Of a DNA stretch of 31,584 nt, positions 8,428 through 21,544 are shown piece by piece. Origin of the DNA: a virus; IMG/VR virus record IMGVR_UViG_3300033134_000381, positions 1 through 31,584 of that record. One strand, 5' to 3'. Position numbers and translations under genes: made by a program. The notes under the pieces were generated by a model that made no database searches, was not told the DNA's origin, and saw only the letters and a list, made by a program, of their open reading frames with translations. Positions within the stretch are counted from its first letter, which is position 1. Each line of letters begins with the position of its first letter.

Positions 8428-8512
8428 AGCACGGCCGCATCCTATGCGCCTGCCCAGCCTCGGCTGACCGGCGCGGTCATATCGCCCTTGGGCCCGTCTT
8501 TGCGAGCGCTTG

Positions 8513-9334
8513 ATGTCGCCATACGATCTGACCAATCTTGCGGCCTTGAAGGCCTGGCTCGGACTGCCCTCTGCCGCGGGGCCGAACGATATGACTCTGA
8601 CCGCGCTCATCACTGCGGCGAGCTGTTCGATCTACGCGGCGATTAGCCGTCCGAGCCTGCTGCCGCGGTCTTACGCCGAGACGATCGACCTCGAGACGCG
8701 GCGCGTCACCCTGAGACAGTGGCCGGTGACGCAGGTCGTGTCGGTGACATGGCGAGGAATTGCCGTGCCGCCCGACCAGAACGCCGATCTCGAGGCCTCG
8801 GTTGGCTACGCCCTCGAGCCGGGCGACGGCGTTCCGCCGGGCCGACCGCAGGCGCTCGACTTGTTTGGCCATCAATACCGGAAGGGCCGCCAAAGCCTCG
8901 TCGTGTCCTACAGCGCCGGATATGCAGTGCAAAACGAGCCGCAGGCGGTTCCCGCGGCCGCTCCGTTTCAGTTCGCCGCGTTCGCGCCTTATGGGCCCTG
9001 GGGCTCGGATCTCGGCGTGACTTACGCCGCATCCGGCGCTGCGCTGACCAGCGTTGCGGCCTCGCCCGGCGCCGGGCAATATTCAGTCAGCGGCGGCGCC
9101 TATGCATTTTCCGCCGCAGACGCCGGGCAATCGCTCTCGATTACTTACGGCTATGTCCCACAGGACATCGCCCAAGCGGCGCTCGAATTGGCGGCCGAGC
9201 GCTTTCGCGCCGCCGAGCGGATCGGGCTCAAGTCAAAGTCGATGGGCGGCCAGGAGACGATCGCCTACGACATGAGCGCCATGTCGGCGCCGGTCCTCGC
9301 AATGCTGCAGCCCTATAAGCGGGTCGCGCTGTGA
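8513..9334 (+). CDS. Head-tail connector protein with inserted beta module
   Basis: The family (gp6-like connector or adaptor) forms the ring under the portal that closes the head and binds the tail. The N-terminal helices (LTNLAALKAWLGLP, ...LTALITAASCSIYAAI) and the VVSYSAGYA and VPQDIAQAALELAAERFR blocks fit this family. In ordinary members the AGY block runs straight into the P.D...A helix; here about 75 residues separate them. Residues 166-218 of this insert carry the module shared with the tail tube and hub proteins. The ATG at 8513 is preferred over the adjoining TTG at 8510. The stop overlaps the next ATG by one base. Confidence 0.75.
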   Translation: MSPYDLTNLAALKAWLGLPSAAGPNDMTLTALITAASCSIYAAISRPSLLPRSYAETIDLETRRVTLRQWPVTQVVSVTWRGIAVPPDQNADLEASVGYALEPGDGVPPGRPQALDLFGHQYRKGRQSLVVSYSAGYAVQNEPQAVPAAAPFQFAAFAPYGPWGSDLGVTYAASGAALTSVAASPGAGQYSVSGGAYAFSAADAGQSLSITYGYVPQDIAQAALELAAERFRAAERIGLKSKSMGGQETIAYDMSAMSAPVLAMLQPYKRVAL

Positions 9335-9822
9335 TGTTCGCGCTCGAGCTCAATGGCCTCGAACAGGCGAACGCCCGGTTCGAGGCTTATCCGGCCGCAT
9401 TGACAGCCGCGCTCGACGCCAAGGCGGCCCAGCTCGCGGCGGCGCTCGTCGACCTCATCCAGAACGACAAGCTATCCGGCGGCTTGCTGAACACGCGCTC
9501 GGGGGCCTTGCGCGATTCGATCGCGGCCAGCATCTCGGCCGATGCGGACGGCTTCGTCGCTTCTGTCGGCTGCGACGGCGACGTGAAATATGCGGCGATC
9601 CAGGAATACGGGGGCAAGACGGGCGCGCATGAAATCCTGCCGGTCAAGGCTCGGGCGCTCGCCTTCGTCGTGGGCGGCTTCCAGCGCTTCGCCCGCAGGG
9701 TCGAGCATCCGGGTTCCCTGATCCGCGAGCGGTCCTACTTGCGCTCGTCGCTCGACGACATGCGTGACGAAATCCTAGACGCGCTGGCAGAAGCCGCGGC
9801 CGACGCATTGGAGCGCGCATGA
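9334..9822 (+). CDS. HK97 gp10-like neck/tail protein
   Basis: This 162-residue protein belongs, by pattern and position, to the HK97 gp10 / minor tail Z-like family that takes part in joining head and tail. Signs are an N-terminal helical stretch, GGLLNTRSGALRDSI at about 50-64 and KYAAIQEYGGKTGAHEI at about 87-103. The YA...EyG.. pattern is characteristic. The C-terminal region is a long helix. The ATG at 9334 is preferred over a GTG just upstream, since it overlaps the connector stop. Its own stop overlaps the next ATG (ATGA at 9819-9822). Confidence 0.8.
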   Translation: MFALELNGLEQANARFEAYPAALTAALDAKAAQLAAALVDLIQNDKLSGGLLNTRSGALRDSIAASISADADGFVASVGCDGDVKYAAIQEYGGKTGAHEILPVKARALAFVVGGFQRFARRVEHPGSLIRERSYLRSSLDDMRDEILDALAEAAADALERA

Positions 9823-10253
9823 CCCGTGAAGCGGCCTTCTCCGCCCTGTTCGTCGCCGTTTCCTCAGCCTATCCTTGGGGCCTCGCGTCGCGGCGGATGA
9901 AGCTCTGGAGCGAAGTTCCGGCGGCGCTGCGCCCTGCGCTTTTCCAGCTCGAAAGCGGGCCGGAGACCTATCAATGGGCGTCGCCTGCGACCCTGAAGCG
10001 AACGCTCGAGGTCAAGCTGTTCCTCTATTTCGACGCCCGCGATCCGACGACGCCGGGCGCGACCGCGATCAACAGCGCGCTTGACGCGATCGATGCGGCG
10101 CTCGCGCCCGCCGGCTCTGACATCGGCCTCGGCCGTCAGACCCTCGGCGCCGCTGTCTACGACTGCAAGATCATGGGCGTGCCGGTCCGCGACACGGGCG
10201 ATCTCGACGGCGACGGGCTGGCGGTGGTCGCGGTGCGGCTGATCGGGCCGTGA
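9819..10253 (+). CDS. Tail completion/terminator protein
   Basis: The 144-residue protein has the layout of tail terminator proteins, which cap the tail tube and join it to the neck: an N-terminal helix (REAAFSALFVAVSSA), RMKLWSEVP, then a beta-rich region with LEVKLFLYFDARDP at about 64-77 and a final VVAVRLIGP strand. Its place between the gp10-like protein and the tail tube gene is the usual one. It is coupled to the upstream gene by a 4-base overlap. The 107-nt gap after it contains no gene I can support. Confidence 0.7.
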   Translation: MTREAAFSALFVAVSSAYPWGLASRRMKLWSEVPAALRPALFQLESGPETYQWASPATLKRTLEVKLFLYFDARDPTTPGATAINSALDAIDAALAPAGSDIGLGRQTLGAAVYDCKIMGVPVRDTGDLDGDGLAVVAVRLIGP

Positions 10254-10360
10254 GGCCGTCCGATTTCTCGTCCAGCTGAGCGGTCCAATGGAAACGCTTC
10301 CCGTCTCGCTGCTGGCGGCGATGCGATCCTCATAGCAATCCCCAACGGAGTTCACCCCTC

Positions 10361-11110
10361 ATGTTCGTATTCGGCTCGGGCGTGCTGACCGGCACGCAAT
10401 TGAATGTCGCGCCCCCAACCCCGATCAATTTCGGGCTGGTCCAGAAGGTCAGCGTCGACACGTCGGTCAGCGTCAAGGAACTCTACGGCCAATATGCGTT
10501 CCCGGTCGCCGTCGGATCCGGCACGCGCAAGGTGCAGTGCAAGGCTTCGCTCGCGCGTTTCAGCGGGCAGGCTCTCGGGCGCCTTTTCTACAATCAGGCG
10601 CCGAGCTCGGGCTCGACGATCTCCCAGTTCGCCGAGGTGCACGGCGTCCCCGCCTCCTCCCCCTATACCGTCACCGTGACCAACGCGACGCACTTCGTGG
10701 CTGACCAGGGCGTCGTTTACGCCTCGACCGGCCTGCCTCTCATCGCCGTCGCAACGGTTTCCGCCGCCGGTCAGTACAGCGTCAATGCAGCCACCGGCGT
10801 CTATACATTCTATTCGGGCGACTCGACGGCCAACGTCCTGATCTCCTACACCTACACGAACAGCTCGCAGGGCGAGTCTCTCGCCATCGCCAACCCGCTG
10901 ATCGGGCCGACGTCAACCTTCACCGCGACGCTGTTCGCGACCGACCCGACGACGAACGCGCAATTCTCGGTGACCCTCAACCAGTGCGTCGCCAGCAAGT
11001 TCTCGTTCGACACCAACATCGAGGACTTCTCCAAGCCGGACTTCGAGTTCCAGGCGTTCGCCAACGCCGCAGGTCAGGTCATGACCTTCAACTTCGGAGA
11101 CGCGGCGTGA
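10361..11110 (+). CDS. Major tail tube protein with inserted beta module
   Basis: The 249-residue protein is in the tail tube position, after the completion protein and before the chaperones. It is beta-rich, starting with GSGVLTGTQLNVAPPTPINF and a later VSVKELYGQYAFPVAV, and its C-terminal part (FSVTLNQCVASKFSFDTN...) fits phage tail tube proteins of this type. Residues about 109-170 contain the module shared with the connector and the hub (VVYASTG, AGQYSV, GVYTF, ISYTY), which would probably stick out from the tube surface. The stop overlaps the next gene's GTG start (GTGA at 11107-11110). Confidence 0.8.
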   Translation: MFVFGSGVLTGTQLNVAPPTPINFGLVQKVSVDTSVSVKELYGQYAFPVAVGSGTRKVQCKASLARFSGQALGRLFYNQAPSSGSTISQFAEVHGVPASSPYTVTVTNATHFVADQGVVYASTGLPLIAVATVSAAGQYSVNAATGVYTFYSGDSTANVLISYTYTNSSQGESLAIANPLIGPTSTFTATLFATDPTTNAQFSVTLNQCVASKFSFDTNIEDFSKPDFEFQAFANAAGQVMTFNFGDAA

Positions 11111-11505
11111 GCGAGGAGGCATTCGCCATATCGCTCGGGGGGAGGACCTGGGCGGTCCCGCACCTCCCGTTCCGGGCCATCAAGGCAATCCAGCCGGTGC
11201 TGTTCGACGTCTATCTCGCCGCTGGCGGCCCCACCATGTCGGGCGAATCCGTGGCGCGGCTCAACGAGGGCCAGCTCGATCGCCTCGCCGAAGCAACGTG
11301 GCGGGCGATCTCCTTCGTCGAGCCGGAACTTTCGTTCGCCAATTTCCTCGATCTGCCGTTTTCGGTCGGCGAACTGATTCAGGCCTTCCCGTCCGTCGCC
11401 AAGGCGGCTGGCCTTCGTCCAAGCGGAAGTGAGGGTCAAGCTTCGCCTGCGCGCGCGACGCCGGAGGCGTCGCAAGGCGTGGGAAAGTCGATTTCGACGC
11501 CCTGA
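11107..11505 (+). CDS. Tail assembly chaperone, zero-frame product (G-like)
   Basis: The 132-residue product starts at the GTG at 11107, overlapping the tail tube stop. It lies between tail tube and tape measure, where siphophages encode the gpG-like chaperone that coats the tape measure during tail assembly. Sequence pattern: a small beta start (FAISLGGRTWAVPHLPF), helices at about 52-100, and a low-complexity Ser/Ala-rich end. Near its end the slippery heptamer GGGAAAG allows some ribosomes to move into the -1 frame and make a longer protein. An upstream in-frame extension would overlap the tail tube gene out of frame and is not credible. Confidence 0.8.
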   Translation: MSEEAFAISLGGRTWAVPHLPFRAIKAIQPVLFDVYLAAGGPTMSGESVARLNEGQLDRLAEATWRAISFVEPELSFANFLDLPFSVGELIQAFPSVAKAAGLRPSGSEGQASPARATPEASQGVGKSISTP

Positions 11506-11726
11506 TCGCCCAGGTCGTCTCCAATACCGGCTGGAGCTGGGACCAGGCGCTCGATCAACTGACCGTCCCGCGTTTCTTGGCGCTCAAGGCCGAATGGCGC
11601 CGCAACCCGCCCGCTCACTGGCTCGTCGCCGCAGCGCTCAAGTATCGAGAGCCAAACGACGACGCCCCGTCGCGGCAGCCGACGATCGCGGAACTGAAGA
11701 CGGCATTTCCGAACGGCGCGCTCTGA
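11107..11726 (+). CDS. Tail assembly chaperone, -1 frameshift fusion (G-T-like)
   Basis: Slippage at 11481-11487 joins the first 127 codons to a -1-frame segment read from 11487 to the TGA at 11724-11726, giving about 206 residues. The -1 segment (79 residues) begins VDFDALIAQVV and contains WSWDQALDQLTVPRFLALKAE and NPPAHWLVAAALKY, the typical look of the T-like chaperone domain that recruits the tape measure to the tube. It has no convincing start of its own. The arrangement matches gpG/gpGT of phage lambda. Fusion levels cannot be judged from sequence. Confidence 0.8.
11481..11487 (+). promoter_or_regulatory. Programmed -1 ribosomal frameshift site GGGAAAG
   Basis: In the zero frame the codons read GTG GGA AAG, so the heptamer is placed exactly as X XXY YYZ. 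After slipping one base back the codons are GGG AAA GTC GAT, entering the open T frame. This is the same heptamer used by lambda genes G and T. The zero frame ends 18 bases later at the TGA at 11503. Confidence 0.85.
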
Positions 11727-11754
11727 CAGATTCCCATAAGGTCAAGGATCAACG

Positions 11755-13065
11755 ATGGCCGACGCCAATGTCTCCGTCAGCTTCAGCGCTTCGATCGACG
11801 ATTTCGTCTCCCAAGTCGGCGAGGCGAAGGACGCTTTACAAACCTTCTCGGCGCCGTTCGGCGACATCAACCGACAACTGGCCTCGCTCGGGGCCGCCAC
11901 GTCCCAGGCCTTCAGCGCTGATCGTCTTGAGCCATATCGCGACGCTCTCACCGCAACCCAATCGCTCCAGCGGTCATTCGCCGCCGACAGCGCACGCGCC
12001 GCCGCGGCGCTGCGCGCCGGCGACGACGAGGCGTATTCCGACGCGATGAGGGCGGCGCAGCTCGCGACCTCGGAAGAATTGAGGATCCTGGCTGACGCGA
12101 CGAAGCAGAAGCTCACCCTCTATGCGGAGGAGGCGCGCTCCTACGAGATCACCCAGCAGCAGAAACTCGCGCTTTCGCAAACCGCGCTCGACCAGGAATA
12201 CGCTGCCGAACTCGCCGCATTGCAGCGCCGCGAGGCGCTCGGCGACCAGTCGCTGGCGGCCGCGCAGCGCGTCAACGACATGATCATCGAAGCGACGCGC
12301 CGCCGCGACGATGAGATGGCGGCGTTAACTCGCTCGTCTCTGCAGGAACAGGAGCGCGACTACCAGTCGTTCGCCAATTCGACCTTGCAGGCGTTCAACT
12401 CCCAATTGCGCGGACTGCTCTCGGGGACGGAGAACTGGCATGCGGCGTTCAAGAGTGTGCTCGACGACTTGCTGATCAAATTCATCGAGTGGTGCGAGAC
12501 CACGGTCGAGCATTACATCCTGGCGGAAGCGATGAAGACAGCAGCGACCAGCGCGGGCGTCGCGGCGCGAACGAGCGCGGAGGACGCTGGGGCGGCAGCT
12601 TCGATGGGCGCCCAAGGCGCAGCGATGATCCGATCTATCCTCTCTTCCGCAGCGGAAACTTTTGCCGGCGTGTTCGGTTTTCTCTCGCCGCTCCTGGGTC
12701 CGTTCGCAGCCGGCCCGGCCGCCGCGGCCCAAGCCACGGTCGCCGGCATGGCCGGCGCCGTCGTTTCTGCCGATATCGGCATGTGGCAGGCGCCACAAGA
12801 CATGCTGACCCTGATCCATCACAACGAACTCATCATGCCGCAGGCGGAGGCCGGCGCATTTCGGTCGCTTCTCACAGCGTCGGCGAACGGCGGTTCGCCC
12901 GGCGCATCGGTCGCCATTCATCCGACCACCAATTTCAATGTGTCCGCGCTCGACGGCGCGTCGGTCTCGTCCTGGATGCGTAGCAATGGCCCCGGTATGG
13001 CGAAGGCGCTTGACGAAGCCGTGCGCCACGGAGCCGCGCTCGGATTGAAGCGCCTACGCGGCTGA
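11755..13065 (+). CDS. Tail tape measure-like protein
   Basis: Located right after the chaperones, this 436-residue protein should set tail length and be released on infection. The N-terminal half is a long, largely uninterrupted helix (about 15-230), with many Ala, Gln and Glu. Around 265-350 there is an Ala/Gly-rich hydrophobic region (FAGVFGFLSPLLGPFAAGPA and after) that could act at the membrane. The C-terminal part has IHHNELIMPQAEAGAF and ends in a helical tail, as in tape measure-like minor tail proteins. At 436 residues it would specify a short siphovirus tail. The ATG at 11755 has AAGG at about 11740. Confidence 0.7.
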   Translation: MADANVSVSFSASIDDFVSQVGEAKDALQTFSAPFGDINRQLASLGAATSQAFSADRLEPYRDALTATQSLQRSFAADSARAAAALRAGDDEAYSDAMRAAQLATSEELRILADATKQKLTLYAEEARSYEITQQQKLALSQTALDQEYAAELAALQRREALGDQSLAAAQRVNDMIIEATRRRDDEMAALTRSSLQEQERDYQSFANSTLQAFNSQLRGLLSGTENWHAAFKSVLDDLLIKFIEWCETTVEHYILAEAMKTAATSAGVAARTSAEDAGAAASMGAQGAAMIRSILSSAAETFAGVFGFLSPLLGPFAAGPAAAAQATVAGMAGAVVSADIGMWQAPQDMLTLIHHNELIMPQAEAGAFRSLLTASANGGSPGASVAIHPTTNFNVSALDGASVSSWMRSNGPGMAKALDEAVRHGAALGLKRLRG

Positions 13066-15602
13066 TGGCGTCCGTCAATCTCATCGGCGTGCACCTGTTG
13101 CCGTCGACAGGCGAATTCGCCTACGACGTCTATCCCGCGGTCGGGGCGCAGCGCGGGCCGAGCGGGCTCGACAACCTCTCGGTCCAGAACTACTTCTCCA
13201 ACCCGAGCCTGGCGGGAAATGTCACCGATTACACCAATTCGATCGAGCAACTTCAGGCGCAGCATCCCGAGTGCATGTCGGTTTCAGTGGTCGTCGCGTG
13301 GTTTTTCGATTCGGAAGACGCCTCGACCTGTCAGATCTATCCATCGACCAATTTCATCCTCGGCGAGTTTCAACAGAACTCCGGCGCCGGGTTCACGCCC
13401 GTGCATTGGATGGTGTCGAGCCTAACCGAGCAGACCTACCCTGGCCTCATTCCGATCCCCGAAATTCCCAATGCTCTCGGAACTCCAGGCTTCGTTTACG
13501 GCGGCACGCCGTCCGACCCCAGCGTCGTGCGCTGCATCCGCGATCTGAAGGCGCGCGGTTTCAAGGTCGTCTTCTATCCGTTCCTGCTTGGAACGGGACC
13601 AGGCTTTCCCTGGCGTGGCCGCATCACCTCGCCGAACGACCTCTCCCAATTGGCGACCAATGACATCAATACGTTCATGGGCGGCGCGGCGGTCGGAGAT
13701 TTCACATCCGACGTTAGCGCGCTGACAGTCGCCTATTCAGGAAACCCGTTCGATTACACCTATCGGCGGATGATCCTTCACTACGCCAACCTGGTGACAG
13801 TCGCCGGCGGCGTCAACCTATTCGTCATCGGTTCGGAATTGCGCGGGCTCGAGATCCTGCGCGGGCCTGGCTGGACTCAGGCGGGAACCACGGACGGGTC
13901 GGGCAATGCGATCTGGGACTATCCGATGGTTGCCGCGCTCAACACGCTGGCGAACGATGTGCGCTCGACCTTCGACGCCGCTGGCTACGCGAAAGACGAG
14001 ACGACCTTCGCGAATCTCATCACCTACTCGGCCGACTGGTCGAGCTGGATGGGGTGGCAGCATCCGGGCGAGAACGGGCAATGGCCGCATCTCGATCAGT
14101 TGCGCGCCAACCCGAACATTGATTTCGTCAGCTTCGACAATTACCTGCCGCTGACCGACTGGACGACCGCGGGCAACGGCGGCCTCGACGGCGACGAATG
14201 GCTGACGCCGATCTATTCCGGCGCATGGCCACCACCTTCGGGATCGCTCAGCGGTCTCGGTCTCAGCGGTCCGCCCACAATCTACTCGATGCCCTATCTC
14301 AAGCTCGGGATCGAGGGCGGCGAGTATTTCAACTGGTACTACAACGATGGCGTGGCCGGCGCCCACGCGGCCTACGGCCTCGACCCGAACGGCTCTGATC
14401 TTCAAGTGACGCTGCCCGCCGGTGATCGTCTGGCGCAGGCGCGCAACCCATATTATCCCAATCAGCAGATCCTCGCCCCGAAGCAGCTACGTTGGTGGTG
14501 GAACAATCTCCATTACGCGGTCTATGCGACGGCAGAGAGCGGCGGCGCCTGGGTACCGACAGGCCCGCAGACGCAATGGGTTCCGAATTCGAAATCGATC
14601 ATCACGCTCGAACACGGCTTTGCTGCTTGCGACAAGGCGACGAACCAGCCGAACGTGTTTTACGACCCCAAAAGCACGGAGAGCGCGACGGCCTTCTGGT
14701 CGATCTGGGATCCGGCGAACAATCTCGGTTATCTGCCGCGGCGCGACGACACGATCCAGGCGATGGCTCTGGAGGCGGTCTACGAATATTGGAACGTCGA
14801 CGGCAATAACACGGTCGTCGGCGGCCTGCCGATGTTCAACTGGATGTTCTGTTGCGTCTGGAATTGGGACGCGCGGCCGTTCCCCACCTTCCCTGACCTC
14901 AACTCGGCGTGGGGCGATACCGGAAATTGGCAACAAGGCTTCTGGACCAATGGCATCAGGGACATGCTGCCGCCGCCCGCGCCGAGCCCACCGCCGTCGC
15001 CGGGGAGTTTCGCCACCTTTCCACCCCTGGCGACCCTCGGCTGGTCGACGCACGTCAAGCCGAAATTCTCGACGCTGATTGCGGGGCACGTTTCCGGGCG
15101 CGAGACACGGACGCAACGGTTTGCCAATCCCTACTTTGATATCGAATTGACCTACGAGGTTTTGCATTCCGATCTGGGCTATGCCGAGCTCCAATCGATC
15201 GCCGGCTTCTTTGAGGAAGCAAGCGGAGAGGATGCACCGTTCTGGGTCGCGCCGCCTGGCCTCAACGGGGCCACGGGCCAATCAATAGGGACAGGCGACA
15301 GTTCGACCACGACATTTCCGCTGGTCGCCTCGATCGGCGGCTATTCCGGGTTCGTCTATGGGACATCGGGCGTGGGCGCCGTCTATCTCAATGGCGTCGC
15401 GCAGGCCAGCGGCTGGACTGTCAGCGCGGGTTTCCTGCCGGCGATCACGTTCACGACGGCACCCCAATCGGGCGTCGTGATCACCGCGGACTTTGGAATT
15501 TTATGGCTCTGCCGGTTCGCCGACGACGTCCAGGACTTCGAGGAATTCATGTCGATGCTGTTCGAATTCCGAACCCTACGGCTTATGACGACCCGGCCGT
15601 GA
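13065..15602 (+). CDS. GTA_TIM glycosidase-like barrel fused to DUF2460
   Basis: Residues 1-630 match the TIM-barrel-like domain (GTA_TIM) normally found at the N-terminus of the GTA host-specificity protein. Blocks include VVVAWF near 75, GGTPSDPSVV near 147, LFVIGSELRGL near 253-263, IDFVSFDNYLPLTDW near 352, CDKATNQPNVFYDPKSTES near 522-540 and VWNWDARPFPTFP near 599. E258 and E516 stand where a clan-A glycosidase would have acid/base and nucleophile, so glycan cleavage is plausible but unproven. A Pro-rich linker (about 633-647) leads to residues 648-845, a complete DUF2460 domain similar to the next gene product. The ATG overlaps the tape measure stop by one base. It probably sits at the tail tip. 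Confidence 0.85.
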   Translation: MASVNLIGVHLLPSTGEFAYDVYPAVGAQRGPSGLDNLSVQNYFSNPSLAGNVTDYTNSIEQLQAQHPECMSVSVVVAWFFDSEDASTCQIYPSTNFILGEFQQNSGAGFTPVHWMVSSLTEQTYPGLIPIPEIPNALGTPGFVYGGTPSDPSVVRCIRDLKARGFKVVFYPFLLGTGPGFPWRGRITSPNDLSQLATNDINTFMGGAAVGDFTSDVSALTVAYSGNPFDYTYRRMILHYANLVTVAGGVNLFVIGSELRGLEILRGPGWTQAGTTDGSGNAIWDYPMVAALNTLANDVRSTFDAAGYAKDETTFANLITYSADWSSWMGWQHPGENGQWPHLDQLRANPNIDFVSFDNYLPLTDWTTAGNGGLDGDEWLTPIYSGAWPPPSGSLSGLGLSGPPTIYSMPYLKLGIEGGEYFNWYYNDGVAGAHAAYGLDPNGSDLQVTLPAGDRLAQARNPYYPNQQILAPKQLRWWWNNLHYAVYATAESGGAWVPTGPQTQWVPNSKSIITLEHGFAACDKATNQPNVFYDPKSTESATAFWSIWDPANNLGYLPRRDDTIQAMALEAVYEYWNVDGNNTVVGGLPMFNWMFCCVWNWDARPFPTFPDLNSAWGDTGNWQQGFWTNGIRDMLPPPAPSPPPSPGSFATFPPLATLGWSTHVKPKFSTLIAGHVSGRETRTQRFANPYFDIELTYEVLHSDLGYAELQSIAGFFEEASGEDAPFWVAPPGLNGATGQSIGTGDSSTTTFPLVASIGGYSGFVYGTSGVGAVYLNGVAQASGWTVSAGFLPAITFTTAPQSGVVITADFGILWLCRFADDVQDFEEFMSMLFEFRTLRLMTTRP

Positions 15603-15603
15603 A

Positions 15604-16221
15604 ATGACCGCGCCGCCGTCCTTTCCCACGCTCTCCGGTCTGGGCTGGAGTGTGCACAAAAAACCCGTCTTCTCGACCATTGTCGCAGGACACGTCTCCG
15701 GTCGCGAGGTTCGCCACGCGCTCTATCAGAACCCGATCTGGCAGTTCGAATTGGCCTTCGACGGCCTCGACTCGACGGCCGACACCTATCCGGGCCTGGG
15801 TCCAAATTCACTCCAGGCGCTGACGGGCTTCTTTCTTGACTGCCAGGGGCAATTTGGCACGTTCCTCTATGTCGATCCGACCGATTCCTCCGCGACCGGC
15901 GCCACCTTTGCAACCGGCGACGGGACGACTGAGAGTTTCACTTTCTCCCGTTACATGGGCGCATTTCTCGAGCCGGTGGGCTGGGTGACGAGTGTTTCGA
16001 ATGTCTACTTGAACGGCGTCAACCAGGCGTCGGGATGGTCGCTCTCTACTCCAAACAGCCTCGTGTTTACCTCTCCTCCAGGGTCCGGAGTCTCGATTGC
16101 GGCGACATTCGCCTATGCCTTCCAATGCCGGTTTGATTCCGACGACATGGATTTCGAGCAGTTCATGTCGGCTCTTTGGAAGGTGGACAGCCTCAAGTTT
16201 AAATCGGTGAGGACATCGTGA
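15604..16221 (+). CDS. DUF2460 tail tip protein
   Basis: This 205-residue protein belongs to the DUF2460 family, equivalent to GTA gp12, a distal tail component. Recognisable blocks are FPTLSGLGWSVHKKPVFST and IVAGHVSGREVRHALY near the start, GFFLDCQGQFGTFLYVDP, then ATGDGTTESFTF, VYLNGVNQASGWSL and YAFQCRFDSDDMDFEQFMSA. Each block has a counterpart in the C-terminal 200 residues of the preceding gene product, so the two are tandem paralogues. The gene starts two bases after the previous stop, and its stop overlaps the next start. Confidence 0.85.
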   Translation: MTAPPSFPTLSGLGWSVHKKPVFSTIVAGHVSGREVRHALYQNPIWQFELAFDGLDSTADTYPGLGPNSLQALTGFFLDCQGQFGTFLYVDPTDSSATGATFATGDGTTESFTFSRYMGAFLEPVGWVTSVSNVYLNGVNQASGWSLSTPNSLVFTSPPGSGVSIAATFAYAFQCRFDSDDMDFEQFMSALWKVDSLKFKSVRTS

Positions 16222-16412
16222 TGGGCGCACTCGTTGGAATGTGGATTTCGGCGTCGCTCGTTCCGCTCGCAATGCTGCGGTCGTTCCTGGGTGGCGTGCG
16301 CCACGAGCTGCGCGAGTACGCACGGGACGAACGCCGCTTTACGTGGTGCGACACTGAAGAGGAGATCGAACGGTTTCAGACGCGCCTGGCGGAGCTTCGC
16401 CGCCGATGCTGA
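16221..16412 (+). CDS. Small membrane protein in the tail-tip operon
   Basis: The 63-residue protein has an N-terminal hydrophobic segment (MGALVGMWISASLVPLAML) and a charged helical C-terminal half ending in an EEEIERFQTRLAELRR coiled-coil-like stretch. The ATG at 16221 has GTGAGGA at 16207-16213; a GTG one codon earlier is less well spaced. It overlaps the DUF2460 stop and itself overlaps the next frame by 7 bases. The family is not recognised. Membrane anchoring is a prediction from hydrophobicity only. Confidence 0.6.
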   Translation: MGALVGMWISASLVPLAMLRSFLGGVRHELREYARDERRFTWCDTEEEIERFQTRLAELRRRC

Positions 16413-16537
16413 TTGCTGGCGCTGTCCGGAACTTGTTCTCGCGTCTCGCAACTGGCTTTGCGGCTGCGCGTTCGTTCCCTCGCCAAGACGCGCCGCGGCC
16501 CTGTCACCCATTTTGGGATAGCGGCTCGCGCCCATGA
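16406..16537 (+). CDS. Tiny coupled reading frame between DUF2460 and DUF2163
   Basis: The 43-codon frame starts with an ATG at 16406, inside the end of the previous gene (overlap 7 bases), and its stop overlaps the DUF2163 start in an ATGA arrangement. Its product is a short Ala/Arg-rich helix (AVRNLFSRLATGFAAARS) followed by a Pro-rich end. The tight overlaps on both sides favour real translation, at least as a coupling device that carries ribosomes to the next gene. No function can be given. Confidence 0.45.
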   Translation: MLIAGAVRNLFSRLATGFAAARSFPRQDAPRPCHPFWDSGSRP

Positions 16538-17403
16538 AGGCGACCACGACCGCCGTTCAAAGCCTTCTCGCCGCGTCAATGGCGGCGCCGGATGCGCCGA
16601 TCGCCTTCGCCGAGTGCTTTACCTTCCTCACGACGACGGGCGTCCAATACACTTGGACGAACGTCGACTATGACGTCGTCTACAACGGCTTCACATTCTC
16701 AGCGTCCGGTCCGCTGGTCTCGGGCCTGAAATACAAGGGGTCAGTCGGTCTTGAAGTTGACAAGCAGCAGATAACGATTGCGGCGCGGCCGACCGACTCG
16801 ATCAACACCGCTCCTTTCCTAGTTGCGCTCCGCGACGGCGCGTTCGACGGCGCGCCCGTCTACCGCGACCGGGTTTTCCTTTCCGCGCCCAACGGAAGCG
16901 TTGTCGGCGGGGTTCGAATGTTCCAGGGACGGGTCTCTACTGTCGACAGCGTGGGCCGCACTCAGGCAACTTTGACCGTCGCCAGCGATCTCGTGATCCT
17001 CGATTACGACATGCCGAGGAACCTGTTTTCGCCGACCTGCCTGCACACGCTCTATGACGCGGGCTGCGGCGTCATCCGCGGCACGTATAGCGTCAACGGG
17101 ACGGCCGAGGCCGGATCGACCTCGAACCTGATCCTGACGTCCGTCGCCCAGGTTGGCCACGCCCAGGGCTCGCTCGTTTGGACGTCGGGCGCCAACGCCA
17201 ACGTGCGCTCGACGGTCAAAAGCGTCACCGCCGGCTCGGCGCTCAACCTCATGTACCCGTTGCCGTTCGCGCCGGCTACTGGCGACGCGTTCACCGTTGC
17301 GTTTGGCTGCGACCACACGCAGGCGACCTGTCAGAGCAAGTTCAACAACCTCGCGAATTTCCGCGGCTTTCCATATGTGCCGCCGCCACAGCTTGCCTAT
17401 TGA
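16534..17403 (+). CDS. DUF2163/BR0599-family tail tip protein
   Basis: This 289-residue protein is equivalent to GTA gp13, part of the distal tail. The N-terminal ~170 residues fit DUF2163, with FTFLTTTGVQYTWTN and the SVGLEVDKQQITIA block followed by DGAFDGAPVYRDRVF. The C-terminal third has the Phage_BR0599-type signature GCDHTQATCQSKFNNLANFR followed by GFP, with paired cysteines, close to the end. The middle has two further cysteines (CLHTLYDAGCGVIRG). Length is normal for the family. The ATG overlaps the upstream stop by 4 bases. In GTAs this gene comes directly before the NlpC/P60 peptidase; here one 54-residue gene lies between them. Confidence 0.9.
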   Translation: MKATTTAVQSLLAASMAAPDAPIAFAECFTFLTTTGVQYTWTNVDYDVVYNGFTFSASGPLVSGLKYKGSVGLEVDKQQITIAARPTDSINTAPFLVALRDGAFDGAPVYRDRVFLSAPNGSVVGGVRMFQGRVSTVDSVGRTQATLTVASDLVILDYDMPRNLFSPTCLHTLYDAGCGVIRGTYSVNGTAEAGSTSNLILTSVAQVGHAQGSLVWTSGANANVRSTVKSVTAGSALNLMYPLPFAPATGDAFTVAFGCDHTQATCQSKFNNLANFRGFPYVPPPQLAY

Positions 17404-17414
17404 GGAATTAATTC

Positions 17415-17579
17415 ATGACGCCCGAACAGGCCGAGAAGATCATCAGGCTCCTTGAAGCGATCGACGCGAAGCTTGGGGCGCCTTCGAATCTGGCCTTTCG
17501 TCCGAATCCGACCTTCGATAACGCAGCGCCCACGCCGGCACCGGGCTATACGTTCACGATGGTCGTCGGCGCTCCTTGA
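17415..17579 (+). CDS. Small protein between DUF2163 and NlpC/P60
   Basis: The 54-residue frame starts at an ATG with GAGGAAT at 17403-17409, a good ribosome binding site. The N-terminal 22 residues form an amphipathic helix (PEQAEKIIRLLEAIDAKLG); the rest is Pro/Asn-rich and ends in a short strand (YTFTMVVGAP). The stop overlaps the TTG start of the peptidase gene, so translation of that gene probably depends on it. The family is not recognised. Confidence 0.6.
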   Translation: MTPEQAEKIIRLLEAIDAKLGAPSNLAFRPNPTFDNAAPTPAPGYTFTMVVGAP

Positions 17580-18028
17580 TCAGCGAGACTGAGGCGCGGC
17601 GCGCGGTCGTCGCCTCCGCGCGGTCGTGGCTCGGGACGCCCTACCATCATGCGGCGGATGTGAAGGGCCGAAATGGCGGCGTCGACTGCGCCATGCTGCT
17701 GGTGCGTGTCTATTGCGACCTTGGCCTAGTCACGCCTTTCGATCCGCGCCCCTACACCCGGGACTGGTTTTTGCATCGCAACGAGGAACGCTATCTCGGC
17801 TTCCTTCTCGCGCGATCGCACGAGGTTCGCTCTCCGAGGGAGGGGGACATCGTTCTTTTCCGGATCGGGCGCTGCTACGGTCACGGCGGGGTTGTCTCGC
17901 GTGCAGAACCGCTGGCGGTTGTGCACGCCTTCGCCAACGCACGCTGCGTCGTCGAGGACGTGATCGAGCGCAACGCGGAGTTGAGCGCTCGGCTCAAGAC
18001 GGCGAAATTCGCAAGCTATTGGGAATAA
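17576..18028 (+). CDS. NlpC/P60-family tail peptidase
   Basis: The 150-residue protein is equivalent to the GTA gp14 / phage cell-wall peptidase, which opens peptidoglycan during DNA entry. C38 in NGGVDCAMLL is the candidate nucleophile, H103 in YGHGG the base, and H117 (VVHAFA) a possible third residue. WLGTPYHHAADVKG before the cysteine and REGDIVLFRIG before the histidine are standard NlpC/P60 blocks. The frame begins at a TTG that overlaps the upstream stop (TTGA), which implies coupled translation; no in-frame ATG gives a complete domain. Genes for the tip proteins lie on both sides, as in GTAs. Confidence 0.9.
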   Translation: MISETEARRAVVASARSWLGTPYHHAADVKGRNGGVDCAMLLVRVYCDLGLVTPFDPRPYTRDWFLHRNEERYLGFLLARSHEVRSPREGDIVLFRIGRCYGHGGVVSRAEPLAVVHAFANARCVVEDVIERNAELSARLKTAKFASYWE

Positions 18029-18031
18029 GCC

Positions 18032-18142
18032 ATGTTTTCGAGCAGCGACTCTGACAGCACACGCCAGTCGATTGTCACTGTCGACGTCGTCGTTGTGGTT
18101 GCGCTCGTTGTCCTCGGCGTCCTTATGGGGCGTGCTGTCTAG
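18032..18142 (+). CDS. 36-residue single-span membrane protein
   Basis: The frame starts at an ATG 3 bases after the peptidase stop and ends 2 bases before the hub gene. The product has a polar Ser/Asp-rich N-terminus (about 14 residues), one strongly hydrophobic segment (VDVVVVVALVVLGVLMG) and a short basic tail, so it is a likely membrane micro-protein with the N-terminus outside or inside undetermined. The tight spacing on both sides supports translation. A role in lysis or in DNA passage through the membrane is conceivable, but nothing shows it. Confidence 0.5.
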   Translation: MFSSSDSDSTRQSIVTVDVVVVVALVVLGVLMGRAV

Positions 18143-18144
18143 TT

Positions 18145-20676
18145 ATGGGCTTCCTTCGCCGCAACGACAACGCCAAGCCGGATTACACGGCGCTCCAGCT
18201 CCAGACTTCGAGCTCGATCCTGCCTATTCCGATCGTCTGGGGTCAGACCAAGATTTCGCCGAACGTCCTATGGTACGCAAATTTCCAGGCAGTCGCGAGC
18301 AGTGGCGGCAAGGGCATTGGCGGCAAGGGGGGCCTCTTCGGCGGCAGCAGCGCAGCGGCGGGAGCTGATTACACCTATACTGCAGACCTGATCATGGGCC
18401 TTTGCGAAGGGCCGATCAACGGCGTCGGTCTGATCTGGAAAGATCTTTCGATCTATGCCCTTGCGGAGCTCGGACTGGGCCTCGAGAACGGTACGACGCC
18501 TCAAGCCGTCTGGTCCTATCTCGCAACCAATTACCCCTCCAACGCGCTTGCCTATCAGGGGACCGCCTATGCCTGGGGAGCCGGCTACAACCTCGGCGAC
18601 TCGGCGTCGATCGGCAACCACAACTTTGAGATTTTGGGCGTCCTTTCCGGTTCTGGTGTCAACGGGATCGACGCCAACCCCGCGCTGGTGATCCAGGACT
18701 TCCTGACCAACGCGCAATATGGTTGCGGCTTCGGCCCCGGCAGCATCGACTCGGGCTCGCTGCTTACCAATGCCGATTCGTTCCAGGCATACTGCTGGGC
18801 GATGGGCTATGCGTTTTCGCCCGCCTTGGTCAGCCAGGAACAGGCCTCGAGTATCCTTACCCGCTGGCTGCAGTTGTTCTCAACGGCGGCGGTATGGAGC
18901 GGCGGCCTGCTCAAGTTCATTCCCTACGGCGACACCGCGATCTCGCAGGGGACGGCGACAACCTATCAGACGCAGCTCTCGATCCCCTCGCCAATCCCGG
19001 CATCTTCGGGCGTCACACTGCCGGCTTATGTCACAGTCAGTGCCGCGTCGGCGTTCGTTTCCGACGGCGGTGTGGTCTACGCCTCTTCCAACATCGCTTT
19101 CACCTTCATCGGGGCGGCGATTCCAAGCGTCGCCGGCGAATATGGGATGGTGACGCCGGGCACATACATTTTCGGGCCGGCCGACCAGGGAAAGCCTGTC
19201 GTCATCACCTATACTGCCCAAGCGGCCGGGAGCTATACCCCGAACCTGACGCCGGTCTACGATCTGACCGACACCGATTTCATCGACGAGAGGGGCAACA
19301 AAGACCCGCTCACAGTCGAGCGGGCCGACATATTCTCACTGCCGACGATTCAGCGCATCGAGGTCTCATCTCGGGACAACCAATACAGCGCGACCCCGGT
19401 TGAGGCCCGCGACCAGTCGCAGATTGAGATTTTCGGCCCGCGCGTCGGCTCGACAATCCAGGCGCTCGAAATCTGCGACGAGTTCGTCATGGGGCCGCTG
19501 ATCGCGCAGACGATCTTGCAGCGCGAGCTTTATGTTCGAACCAAGTTCACTTTCAAGCTCTCTTGGGAGTATTGCCTGCTCGATCCCATGGATATCGTCA
19601 CCATCACAGATTCCAATCTGGGGCTGACTGACTATCCCGTTCGCGTCATCCAGATCGAGGAGGACGACAAGGGGCTGCTCGCTTTTACCTGCGAAGAGCT
19701 CGTGGCGGGCGTCTCCAATCCCGCTTTCTACGCGAGCGCCAGCGCGGGCGGCTTTCAGCCAAACCAGGGCGTGCCGGCGGTGCCGGTCAACACGCCGCTC
19801 ATTGTCCAGCCGCCGACGTCCCTGACCGGAGGGCTCAACCAGATCTGGGTCGGCGCGTCGGGGATCAACAGCGGCAGCGGCATGCAATGGGGCGGCGCCA
19901 CCGTCTATGTCTCGATCGACAACGTTACCTATTCGCAGGTTGCGGTTCTGACCGCGCCAACGCGTCAGGGCTTCCTCACCGCGGCTCTTCCCGCCGCGGC
20001 AGGATGGGATTCGATCGACACCCTCGCGGTCAATCTGGCCGAGAGCGGCGGCGTCTTGACGGGCACAAGCCAAGCTGCGGCGCAACAGGGAGCTACGCTC
20101 TCGATCGTCGATAGCGAATTTCTCGCTTATGAGACGGCGACACTCGTCTCAGGCAACGCCTACAACCTCACCGGCCTCGCGCGCGGGCAGGGTGGGTCGA
20201 CACCGACAGCACATCCGACAAATGCGCCATTCGCGCGCATCGACGGGGCGGTCATCCGATACACGCTGCCGGCCAATTTCGCCGGCCAAACGCTTTATCT
20301 CAAGTTCCAGAGCTTCAACGTCTTCGGCGGCGGCTTCGAAGACCTTTCGACCTGCACCGCCTACACCTTCACCCCTTCGGTCGCCACTGCGGACCCGATC
20401 TTCGCCCAGTTGCAGACCGGATTCGCGCTCGATCTCGGTCAGGTCACGGACGCGCCGACCGTATCTGATGACTGGGGCCCGGTGACGGCTGCGGCGATCT
20501 CGTCGCTCGATCTCGGCTCGGTGGCGGTCACAGTCTCCGATCCGATTGCTGTCCAGCTCTTGAGTGGAACCCCGCTCGATCTCGGTATGACGACGAGCGC
20601 GGTGACGGTTTCAGATGATTTCGGCTCGACCAACGATGCTGTGGTCGACGTGATTGACTTAGGGACAGCGCCATGA
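18145..20676 (+). CDS. Tail hub/host-specificity protein (GTA gp15-like, without its TIM barrel)
   Basis: The 843-residue protein occupies the hub position after NlpC/P60. The N-terminal part (ALQLQTSSSILPIPIVWGQT, YTADLIMGLCEGPI) is the typical start of phage tip proteins. Residues about 440-560 fit the Phage-tail_3 domain (QRELYVRTKFTFKLSWEY, LLDPMDIVTITD). In GTAs the homologous protein carries the GTA_TIM barrel; here that barrel is in the gene at 13065. Residues about 300-360 contain the module shared with the connector and tail tube. Residues 660-740 (LAYETATLVSGNAYNLTGLA, RGQGGS) are the usual receptor-side region. The last 85 residues hold LDLG/TVSDD repeats. Confidence 0.85.
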   Translation: MGFLRRNDNAKPDYTALQLQTSSSILPIPIVWGQTKISPNVLWYANFQAVASSGGKGIGGKGGLFGGSSAAAGADYTYTADLIMGLCEGPINGVGLIWKDLSIYALAELGLGLENGTTPQAVWSYLATNYPSNALAYQGTAYAWGAGYNLGDSASIGNHNFEILGVLSGSGVNGIDANPALVIQDFLTNAQYGCGFGPGSIDSGSLLTNADSFQAYCWAMGYAFSPALVSQEQASSILTRWLQLFSTAAVWSGGLLKFIPYGDTAISQGTATTYQTQLSIPSPIPASSGVTLPAYVTVSAASAFVSDGGVVYASSNIAFTFIGAAIPSVAGEYGMVTPGTYIFGPADQGKPVVITYTAQAAGSYTPNLTPVYDLTDTDFIDERGNKDPLTVERADIFSLPTIQRIEVSSRDNQYSATPVEARDQSQIEIFGPRVGSTIQALEICDEFVMGPLIAQTILQRELYVRTKFTFKLSWEYCLLDPMDIVTITDSNLGLTDYPVRVIQIEEDDKGLLAFTCEELVAGVSNPAFYASASAGGFQPNQGVPAVPVNTPLIVQPPTSLTGGLNQIWVGASGINSGSGMQWGGATVYVSIDNVTYSQVAVLTAPTRQGFLTAALPAAAGWDSIDTLAVNLAESGGVLTGTSQAAAQQGATLSIVDSEFLAYETATLVSGNAYNLTGLARGQGGSTPTAHPTNAPFARIDGAVIRYTLPANFAGQTLYLKFQSFNVFGGGFEDLSTCTAYTFTPSVATADPIFAQLQTGFALDLGQVTDAPTVSDDWGPVTAAAISSLDLGSVAVTVSDPIAVQLLSGTPLDLGMTTSAVTVSDDFGSTNDAVVDVIDLGTAP

Positions 20677-20689
20677 AGGATCAAACCAT

Positions 20690-21544
20690 TTGAGCGAGCA
20701 ACTCCAACTTCGCCGCGGCACGTCAGCGCAGGTCGCCGCCTTCACTGGGGCGCAGGGCGAGACAGTGATGGATACGACCAACAATCGACTGGTCGTCAAC
20801 GATGGCGCGACCGCCGGCGGCTGGCCGGTCGCCAAACTCGCCGAGGTCGTCACCAACGGGCGCACGGCGGTATCGGACGCGGCCTATACGGCGCTCGAGA
20901 CTGATCGCATGATCGCCTACACGGCGCTGACCGCCGCCCGCGTTGTCAGCCTCCCCGCTGCCTCCGCCTATCCGACCGGCACTCGGCTGATTGTGGTCGA
21001 TGAGACGGGCAATTGCTCGGTGACCAACACTCTCACCATCGCGCCAAACGCCACGGACGCGATCGACGGCGCAGCATCCGCAGTCCTTAATGTCGCTTAT
21101 GGTTATATCGGCATCGAGAGCAACGGGGCCGGCGCCTGGACGGTCACCGATCAGGGCTTCATGCCGGCGCTCGCGTTCGTCGCCGCCGCGGCGCATGGCG
21201 CCAGTGTCCAGATCGGTATCCTCGAGACGCTCGTTACACTTTCGGGCGCGTCGACCAGCGGTAGCGTGCAAATCCCCGCCAACTGCATCGTGCTCGCTGT
21301 CGGCGCGCGGGTTGTGACCGCCATCTCCGGCGCGACATCCTATGAAGTCGGGGTGTCTGGGAATCTCTCGCAATTTGGCTCGGGCCTCGCGATTGCGACC
21401 GGTTCGACTAATTACGGCCTTATCGGCCCGACCGCTTTCTATTCACCGACGACGCTGACAATCACCGCAACTGGCGGCAGCTTCAGCGGTGGCCAGGTCA
21501 GACTGTCGATCGCATACATGCTGGCCAATCCGTCGGCGGCCTAA
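20690..21544 (+). CDS. Tail fibre/adhesin with Mtd_N-like N-terminus
   Basis: Residues 1-48 (LQLRRGTSAQVAAFTGAQGE, MDTTNNRLVVNDGATAGGWP) match the small N-terminal domain that attaches many phage tropism determinants and fibres to the tail. The rest of the 284 residues is beta-rich, Ala/Gly/Ser/Thr-rich and ends in VRLSIAYMLANP, compatible with a receptor-binding or trimer-forming region. It starts at a TTG at 20690 with GAAGGAT a few bases upstream; an ATG at 20673 in another frame makes only six codons. No reverse transcriptase or variable repeat is seen nearby, so tropism switching is not suggested. Confidence 0.7.
   Translation: MSEQLQLRRGTSAQVAAFTGAQGETVMDTTNNRLVVNDGATAGGWPVAKLAEVVTNGRTAVSDAAYTALETDRMIAYTALTAARVVSLPAASAYPTGTRLIVVDETGNCSVTNTLTIAPNATDAIDGAASAVLNVAYGYIGIESNGAGAWTVTDQGFMPALAFVAAAAHGASVQIGILETLVTLSGASTSGSVQIPANCIVLAVGARVVTAISGATSYEVGVSGNLSQFGSGLAIATGSTNYGLIGPTAFYSPTTLTITATGGSFSGGQVRLSIAYMLANPSAA

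Follow-up and report, generated by a model that had tools for sequence, protein, structure and literature searches.

A decoration-type domain in the tail tube, head-tail connector and hub of a virus with a GTA-like siphovirus cassette

Ig-like and carbohydrate-binding decorations of virions are usually regarded as add-ons to single proteins, and the Ig-like domains of phage virion proteins (Big_1, Big_2, fn3, I-set) are typically terminal extensions. An article entitled 'Ig-like domains on bacteriophages: a tale of promiscuity and deceit' reportedly deals with promiscuous Ig-like domains in phages. Within the tail tube protein of phage JBD30, residues 88–175 form an immunoglobulin-like decoration domain that protrudes tangentially (PMC11445458), and the corresponding domain of the SPR tube is the peripheral D2 (PMC10981675). 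Domain 2 of the YSD1 tube, also termed Ig-like by its authors, latches adjacent subunits and buries 950 Å2 (PMC7385642). In lactococcal 936 phages, carbohydrate-binding modules occur on the neck passage structure, the major tail protein and Dit, and one tail and one neck module bound host cells (PMC6669499). Similarly, Ig-like domains on the capsid and tube of mycobacteriophage Douge bind the host surface (PMC13033339). It has already been described that phage proteins in general exchange domains by shuffling (PMC10684548), so the phenomenon itself is of a known kind.

The stretch of DNA analysed here (the window; 31,584 bases of an IMG/VR virus record) carries a GTA-like siphovirus virion cassette. 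It comprises terminase, portal, capsid protein, connector, HK97 gp10-like protein and tail terminator-like protein, followed by tail tube, tape measure, GTA-TIM protein, DUF2460 protein, DUF2163 protein, NlpC/P60 peptidase and hub. The names terminase, portal, capsid, gp10-like, terminator, tape measure and NlpC were taken from gene order and sequence, not from profile matches. The putative tape measure protein (11755–13065) has only 436 aa, which suggests a short tail. DUF2460 is present twice in tandem (13065–16221), as a C-terminal fusion to the GTA-TIM protein (aa 652–841) and then as a separate gene, the two being 41.5% identical. A protein with an N-terminal Mtd_N (Major tropism determinant) attachment domain is encoded at 20690–21544 and adjoins two long fibre-like ORFs.

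One module in connector, tube and hub

A single domain of about 75 residues occurs in the head-tail adaptor, the tail tube and the hub of the same phage. Comparison of the 17 window proteins by blastp linked tube with hub (E=7e-9, 37% over 120 aa), connector with tube (E=4e-7) and connector with hub (E=1e-4, 49% over 51 aa), and gave no other strong cross-match apart from the two DUF2460 domains. Pairwise local alignment scores were 106, 90 and 114, which none of the 5,000 shuffles per pair reached (maxima 67, 65 and 72), so the similarity is better than chance. Profiles of the connector and tube modules aligned with an hhalign probability of 99.7%. These results confirm the pattern that a preliminary description had placed in all three proteins, and support its idea of a portable domain common to neck, tube and hub. 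The 55–60 residues given there cover the C-terminal part of the module. The N-terminal part 'E..xVPA.sPYtvTV', which was missed, is common to the copies and belongs to the unit.

The three classes have the residues P, D.GV.Y, G.Y, G.Y.F, D.G and V.I.Y in common, which look like turn and strand positions and like a structural skeleton; no exposed site common to the classes is evident among them. Outside these residues, each class has its own consensus. The charge of the module is very low (K+R 0.7–1.9%, K+R+D+E 6–8%) and its F/Y content is high (about 11–12%).

The connector gene (8510..9334, + strand) encodes 274 aa, with a core at aa 1–138 and C-terminal helices at aa 218–274. Both profile and fold identify the protein as a phrog_442 / gp6-like head-tail adaptor: it matches the phrog_442 profile at E=1e-19, and its AlphaFold model (mean pLDDT 84.9) resembles adaptors and neck proteins of T5 (9ilp_a, Z 10.5) and GTA (6toa_D, Z 8.9), as well as those of SPP1 and Mycofy1. 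A structural search of viral predictions also returned mainly gp6-type adaptors, of about 170–300 aa. The module (8930..9157, + strand; aa 141–216) follows the 'SYSAGY' strand and precedes the 'VPQDIAQA' helix, and was modelled as a separate unit of seven strands with block-mean pLDDT values of 81–96. About 20 homologous connectors lack the module at exactly this junction. Their AGY strand leads straight into the helix ('YTAGYAA' followed directly by 'IPADLSQA'), and the window connector is longer by about 78 residues at this point. Lengths are roughly 273 aa with the module versus 186 aa without it, and nearly all module-free ones fall within 180–206 aa. A non-redundant census gave 68 connectors with and 25 without the module, although four of these 25 are broken or very divergent cases that should not be counted. 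Hence, the module splits the AGY block from the following helix exactly as first described, module-free relatives show a clean empty site, and the connector module is a real insertion.

The tail tube gene (10361..11110, + strand; 249 aa) contains the second copy (10628..10864, + strand; aa 90–168) in the place of the decoration domain or domain 2, after the helix at aa 69–76. In its AlphaFold model (mean pLDDT 89.6; module block means about 92–97) this helix is followed by the module strands (82–173) and then by core strands, and the strand order of the module is the same as in the connector model. The tube model matches the SPR tail tube over its whole length (8xkn_B, Z 15.4, 226 aligned, rmsd 3.8). 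Whole-length matches were also found with the tubes of JBD30 (Z 13.5), Chi (Z 13.4) and YSD1 (Z 12.6), where an rmsd near 9 Å over the full length implies a different domain orientation. This strand layout and the whole-length matches to 8xkn_B, 8rk3_f and 6xgr_A together show a beta-sandwich that is inserted behind the helix into the core of the tube. The module sits at the same position as the JBD30 decoration domain (aa 88–175), which supports the decoration-type beta fold proposed earlier. The connector module on its own matched SPR tube residues 90–154 (Z 5.1, rmsd 2.3, 62 aligned) and residues 143–209 of a phage 812 neck protein (Z 7.4, rmsd 1.9, 65 aligned), but Z values under 8 may reflect only a common arrangement. 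PDB profile searches with the module and the whole tube as queries yielded no solved relative, the SPR, JBD30 and YSD1 tubes included, and a very remote kinship is possible.

All of the 100 non-redundant tube homologues contain the module, down to about 30% identity. Across these homologues, then, the module is obligate, a fixed part of the tube family. The earlier claim of insertion into three proteins therefore holds for connector and hub, for which module-free relatives exist, but not for the tube. Since the tube always carries the domain and matches solved tubes over its whole length, module included, we conclude that the module is the decoration domain (domain 2) already known from tubes, which other proteins have reused. 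PHROG 8234, a family with no function listed, may accordingly be a tail tube with decoration domain.

The third copy (18994..19218, + strand; aa 284–358) is located in the tail hub or tip protein (18145..20676, + strand; 843 aa), which matches Phage-tail_3 (PF13550, E=1e-29) and Rcc01698_C (PF23666, E=6e-16). It lies between 'KFIPYGDTAISQG' and 'SYTPNLTPVYDLTDTDF'. The hubs of two relatives (loci L001 and L067) read '...PYGDEAQTGGGVTYIPN...' and '...PYGTSTVTGNGATYTPD...' instead, and in module-free relatives 'PYGD...' is joined straight to 'TYIPN...'. The hub census found 18 proteins with and 23 without the module, and the copy is an optional insertion. Across hubs the module occupies at least five sites. 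Besides the window site, these are the positions that follow 'WGYL' (two tandem copies in L068) and 'NFEVKG' (L068, with L136 close by), the one that precedes 'YQNFCLASG' (L094, L149) and one within the C-terminal region (L109).

Two further features of the hubs were observed. The C-terminal tail of the window hub (20377–20676; aa 745–843) consists of diverged repeats of the type 'DLG.VT.A.TVSDD.G.....'. The L067 hub (14597–17855) has a different beta module ('VSSPYQITL...VKYTYY') after 'WSYM', near one of the L068 module sites, which is possibly a remote relative of the module.

Spread and age of the module

The module profile identified 282 host ORFs in 164 loci, although some loci overlap and the counts are not independent. 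Most host ORFs were tubes (148), connectors (100) and hubs (28). The others comprised a DUF2163 protein (L076), a DUF2460-type protein of Brevundimonas phage Polewnik (L001), whose connector and tube have the module as well, and two SGNH-hydrolase-like proteins from Rhodoblastus acidophilus (L099, L100). One more connector, of divergent sequence (L094), and a broken connector fragment (L042) complete the set. The same sequence family is thus present in connector, tube and hub and, in relatives, in DUF2460, DUF2163 and SGNH-like proteins, which qualifies it as a promiscuous virion decoration domain. For the scans of collections one module profile (A1) was too diverse and a closer set (A6) worked; scanning IMG/VR with one conserved stretch yielded 404 encoding places. 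Bacterial genomes with module loci include those of Rhodospirillales, Methylocapsa, Beijerinckia, Rhodoblastus and Ferrovum. Cultured phages gave few matches, and a tblastn search of the phage collection with the hub segment gave none.

In Pfam, 24 diverse modules matched neither a Big_1, Big_2, fn3 or I-set family (E<=1), which by profile leaves the module outside the curated Ig-like families, nor any carbohydrate-binding family. As searched, Pfam and NCBIfam contain neither the module family nor its use as an internal and nested unit of neck, tube and hub proteins, and in PHROGs it is almost confined to tube family 8234.

Nesting was found in three connectors, which have the N-terminal half of one module, a whole module and then the C-terminal half (L030, 4668–5771; L032, 2743–3849; L101, 907–2247). 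The loop that receives the nested copy follows 'D.GVTYA', and L044 shows the end of a like arrangement. In the hub module of L109 (10056–12656) it is a foreign 'DLG..DDFGS' repeat that breaks the chain at this loop, and this repeat resembles those in the C-terminal tail of the window hub. Together, the three nested loci and the L109 repeat point to a module that would fold in a self-contained manner and has a loop tolerant of insertions. The modules of the SGNH/lipase-like proteins (L099, 8795–11554; L100, 8801–11545) have an extra cysteine-containing stretch in this tolerant loop.

On an unrooted tree of 178 modules, in which few columns leave the fine branching unsure, the host-protein labels require 9 changes versus 74.7 for shuffled labels. 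The nearest rows of the three window copies are their counterparts in other phages. Because the copies cluster by host protein and not by genome, the spread of the module is old and the insertions are inherited. The preliminary description had envisaged spread within one genome; a recent burst of this kind was rejected on the same grounds.

The tube was probably the donor, given the universality of the module in tubes and the like-placed domains of remote tubes, though the unrooted tree itself gives no direction. Also in favour of the tube as donor, the three window classes align by sequence, whereas the module profile finds no SPR, JBD30 or YSD1 tube in the PDB.

Possible roles of the module

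Our preferred explanation, in which we have somewhat more confidence than doubt, is that the tube decoration domain was copied into other ring-forming virion proteins and acts as structural bracing. The module would be an autonomous small beta-sandwich, namely the peripheral domain that this class of tube always carries after the helix. Copies may long ago have entered other ring-forming proteins, chiefly the head-tail adaptor and the hub, at strand ends or in loops exposed on the surface. The chain ends probably enter and leave the module as adjacent strands, which would allow it to fit into a loop while the host fold is left undisturbed. After insertion, each copy evolved along with its own host protein. 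By analogy, the module would lie on the outer surface of the particle. Its likeliest job is structural, where the peripheral unit would pack on or beside neighbouring subunits and so brace the rings of neck, tube and hub, perhaps with weak contact with the host surface as a side role.

Conservation of the module was higher than that of the rest of the protein in the tube (0.56 vs 0.46) and the connector (0.54 vs 0.49), and slightly lower in the hub (0.57 vs 0.67). A module at least as conserved as its tube or connector is unlike a diversifying receptor binder. Several points count against bracing: a nearly uncharged module cannot copy the salt-bridge latch of YSD1 in detail, the rings of connector and hub do not require a module that is only optional there, and the hub copy is less conserved than its protein.

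Alternatively, the module might be a weak host-surface (glycan) binding domain, and its copies on neck, tube and tip would then provide avidity over the whole length of the particle. Lactococcal 936 phages (PMC6669499) and Douge (PMC13033339) are strong precedents for such a role, and it would suit a charge-poor module rich in F and Y, of which one copy resides in an SGNH-hydrolase-like protein. However, no exposed aromatic motif common to the three classes is evident, and in tube and connector the module diversifies no faster than its host protein. Moreover, the tubes never lose it, though some tube Ig domains elsewhere are dispensable, such as that of SPP1 (PMC8718954). The 'same surface' for glycan binding put forward in the preliminary description is likewise not favoured by the lack of a carbohydrate-binding match in Pfam, the structural look of the shared residues and the class-specific nature of the rest. 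We infer a bracing or decoration role adapted to each protein rather than a common glycan-binding surface, for which we would allow about one chance in four.

It is considerably less probable that the copies are neutral passengers, in which case recombination would have spread these insertion-tolerant domains and their harmlessness would have preserved them. Their optional presence in connector and hub, the many different hub sites, and the nested and interrupted copies would all fit such passengers. Yet connector copies remain intact and equal or exceed their host protein in conservation, down to about 30–35% identity, and tubes have never lost the module.

We consider it most improbable that the segments are core folds made alike by convergence on a common phage beta-sandwich: the core beta-domain (aa 52–137) and the module (aa 138–216) of the connector do match the same phage 812 neck region (Z 7.0 and 7.4, again values that a common arrangement may explain), which indicates that many neck and tail proteins have this fold, but core and module reach an hhalign probability of at most 1.3%, far below that between the connector and tube modules, and module-free relatives refute a core fold for connector and hub, while the tube domain stays a fixed part of its family. 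The connector insert thus adjoins a core domain of like fold. Its origin as a duplicate of that domain was also considered and rejected, as the folds are alike but the sequences share no similarity.

In this phage lineage, mostly from alphaproteobacterial and environmental samples, a tube domain might have become a plug-in used in at least six kinds of virion-associated protein at some ten sites, nested in places, with the copies at neck, tube and tip serving one function, for instance binding of the same host ligand. We put this forward as a speculative reading that is rather unlikely to hold in full.

Comparison with known systems

One sequence family can here be traced as an internal plug-in through tube, neck, hub and beyond, with relatives that show clean empty sites, so that insertion, spread and function can be dissected. 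As in the lactococcal 936 phages, neck, tube and tip of one virion are all decorated. The 936 modules have BppA-like and other carbohydrate-binding folds with demonstrated host binding (PMC6669499), whereas binding by the window module would be putative.

Like the promiscuous Ig-like domains of phages, the module is a small beta-sandwich reused across several virion proteins. It differs from them in having no Pfam Ig match and in that its copies are mostly internal insertions, some of them nested.

The window connector corresponds to the HK97 gp6, T5 and GTA adaptors in its core (aa 1–138) and C-terminal helices, but after its last core strand and ahead of the helix it has an extra second beta domain. 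Most of the solved adaptors that match it best are proteins of 170–200 aa.

The closest likeness is to domain 2 of the SPR, JBD30, YSD1 and Chi tubes, also a beta-sandwich, which has the same place in the chain, after the helix and between core strands (tube Z 12.6–15.4). Compared to domain 2 of SPR, JBD30 and YSD1, the window module is nearly uncharged and has no sequence similarity detectable by PDB profile search. Unlike the domain in those tubes, it serves also in the connector and the hub.
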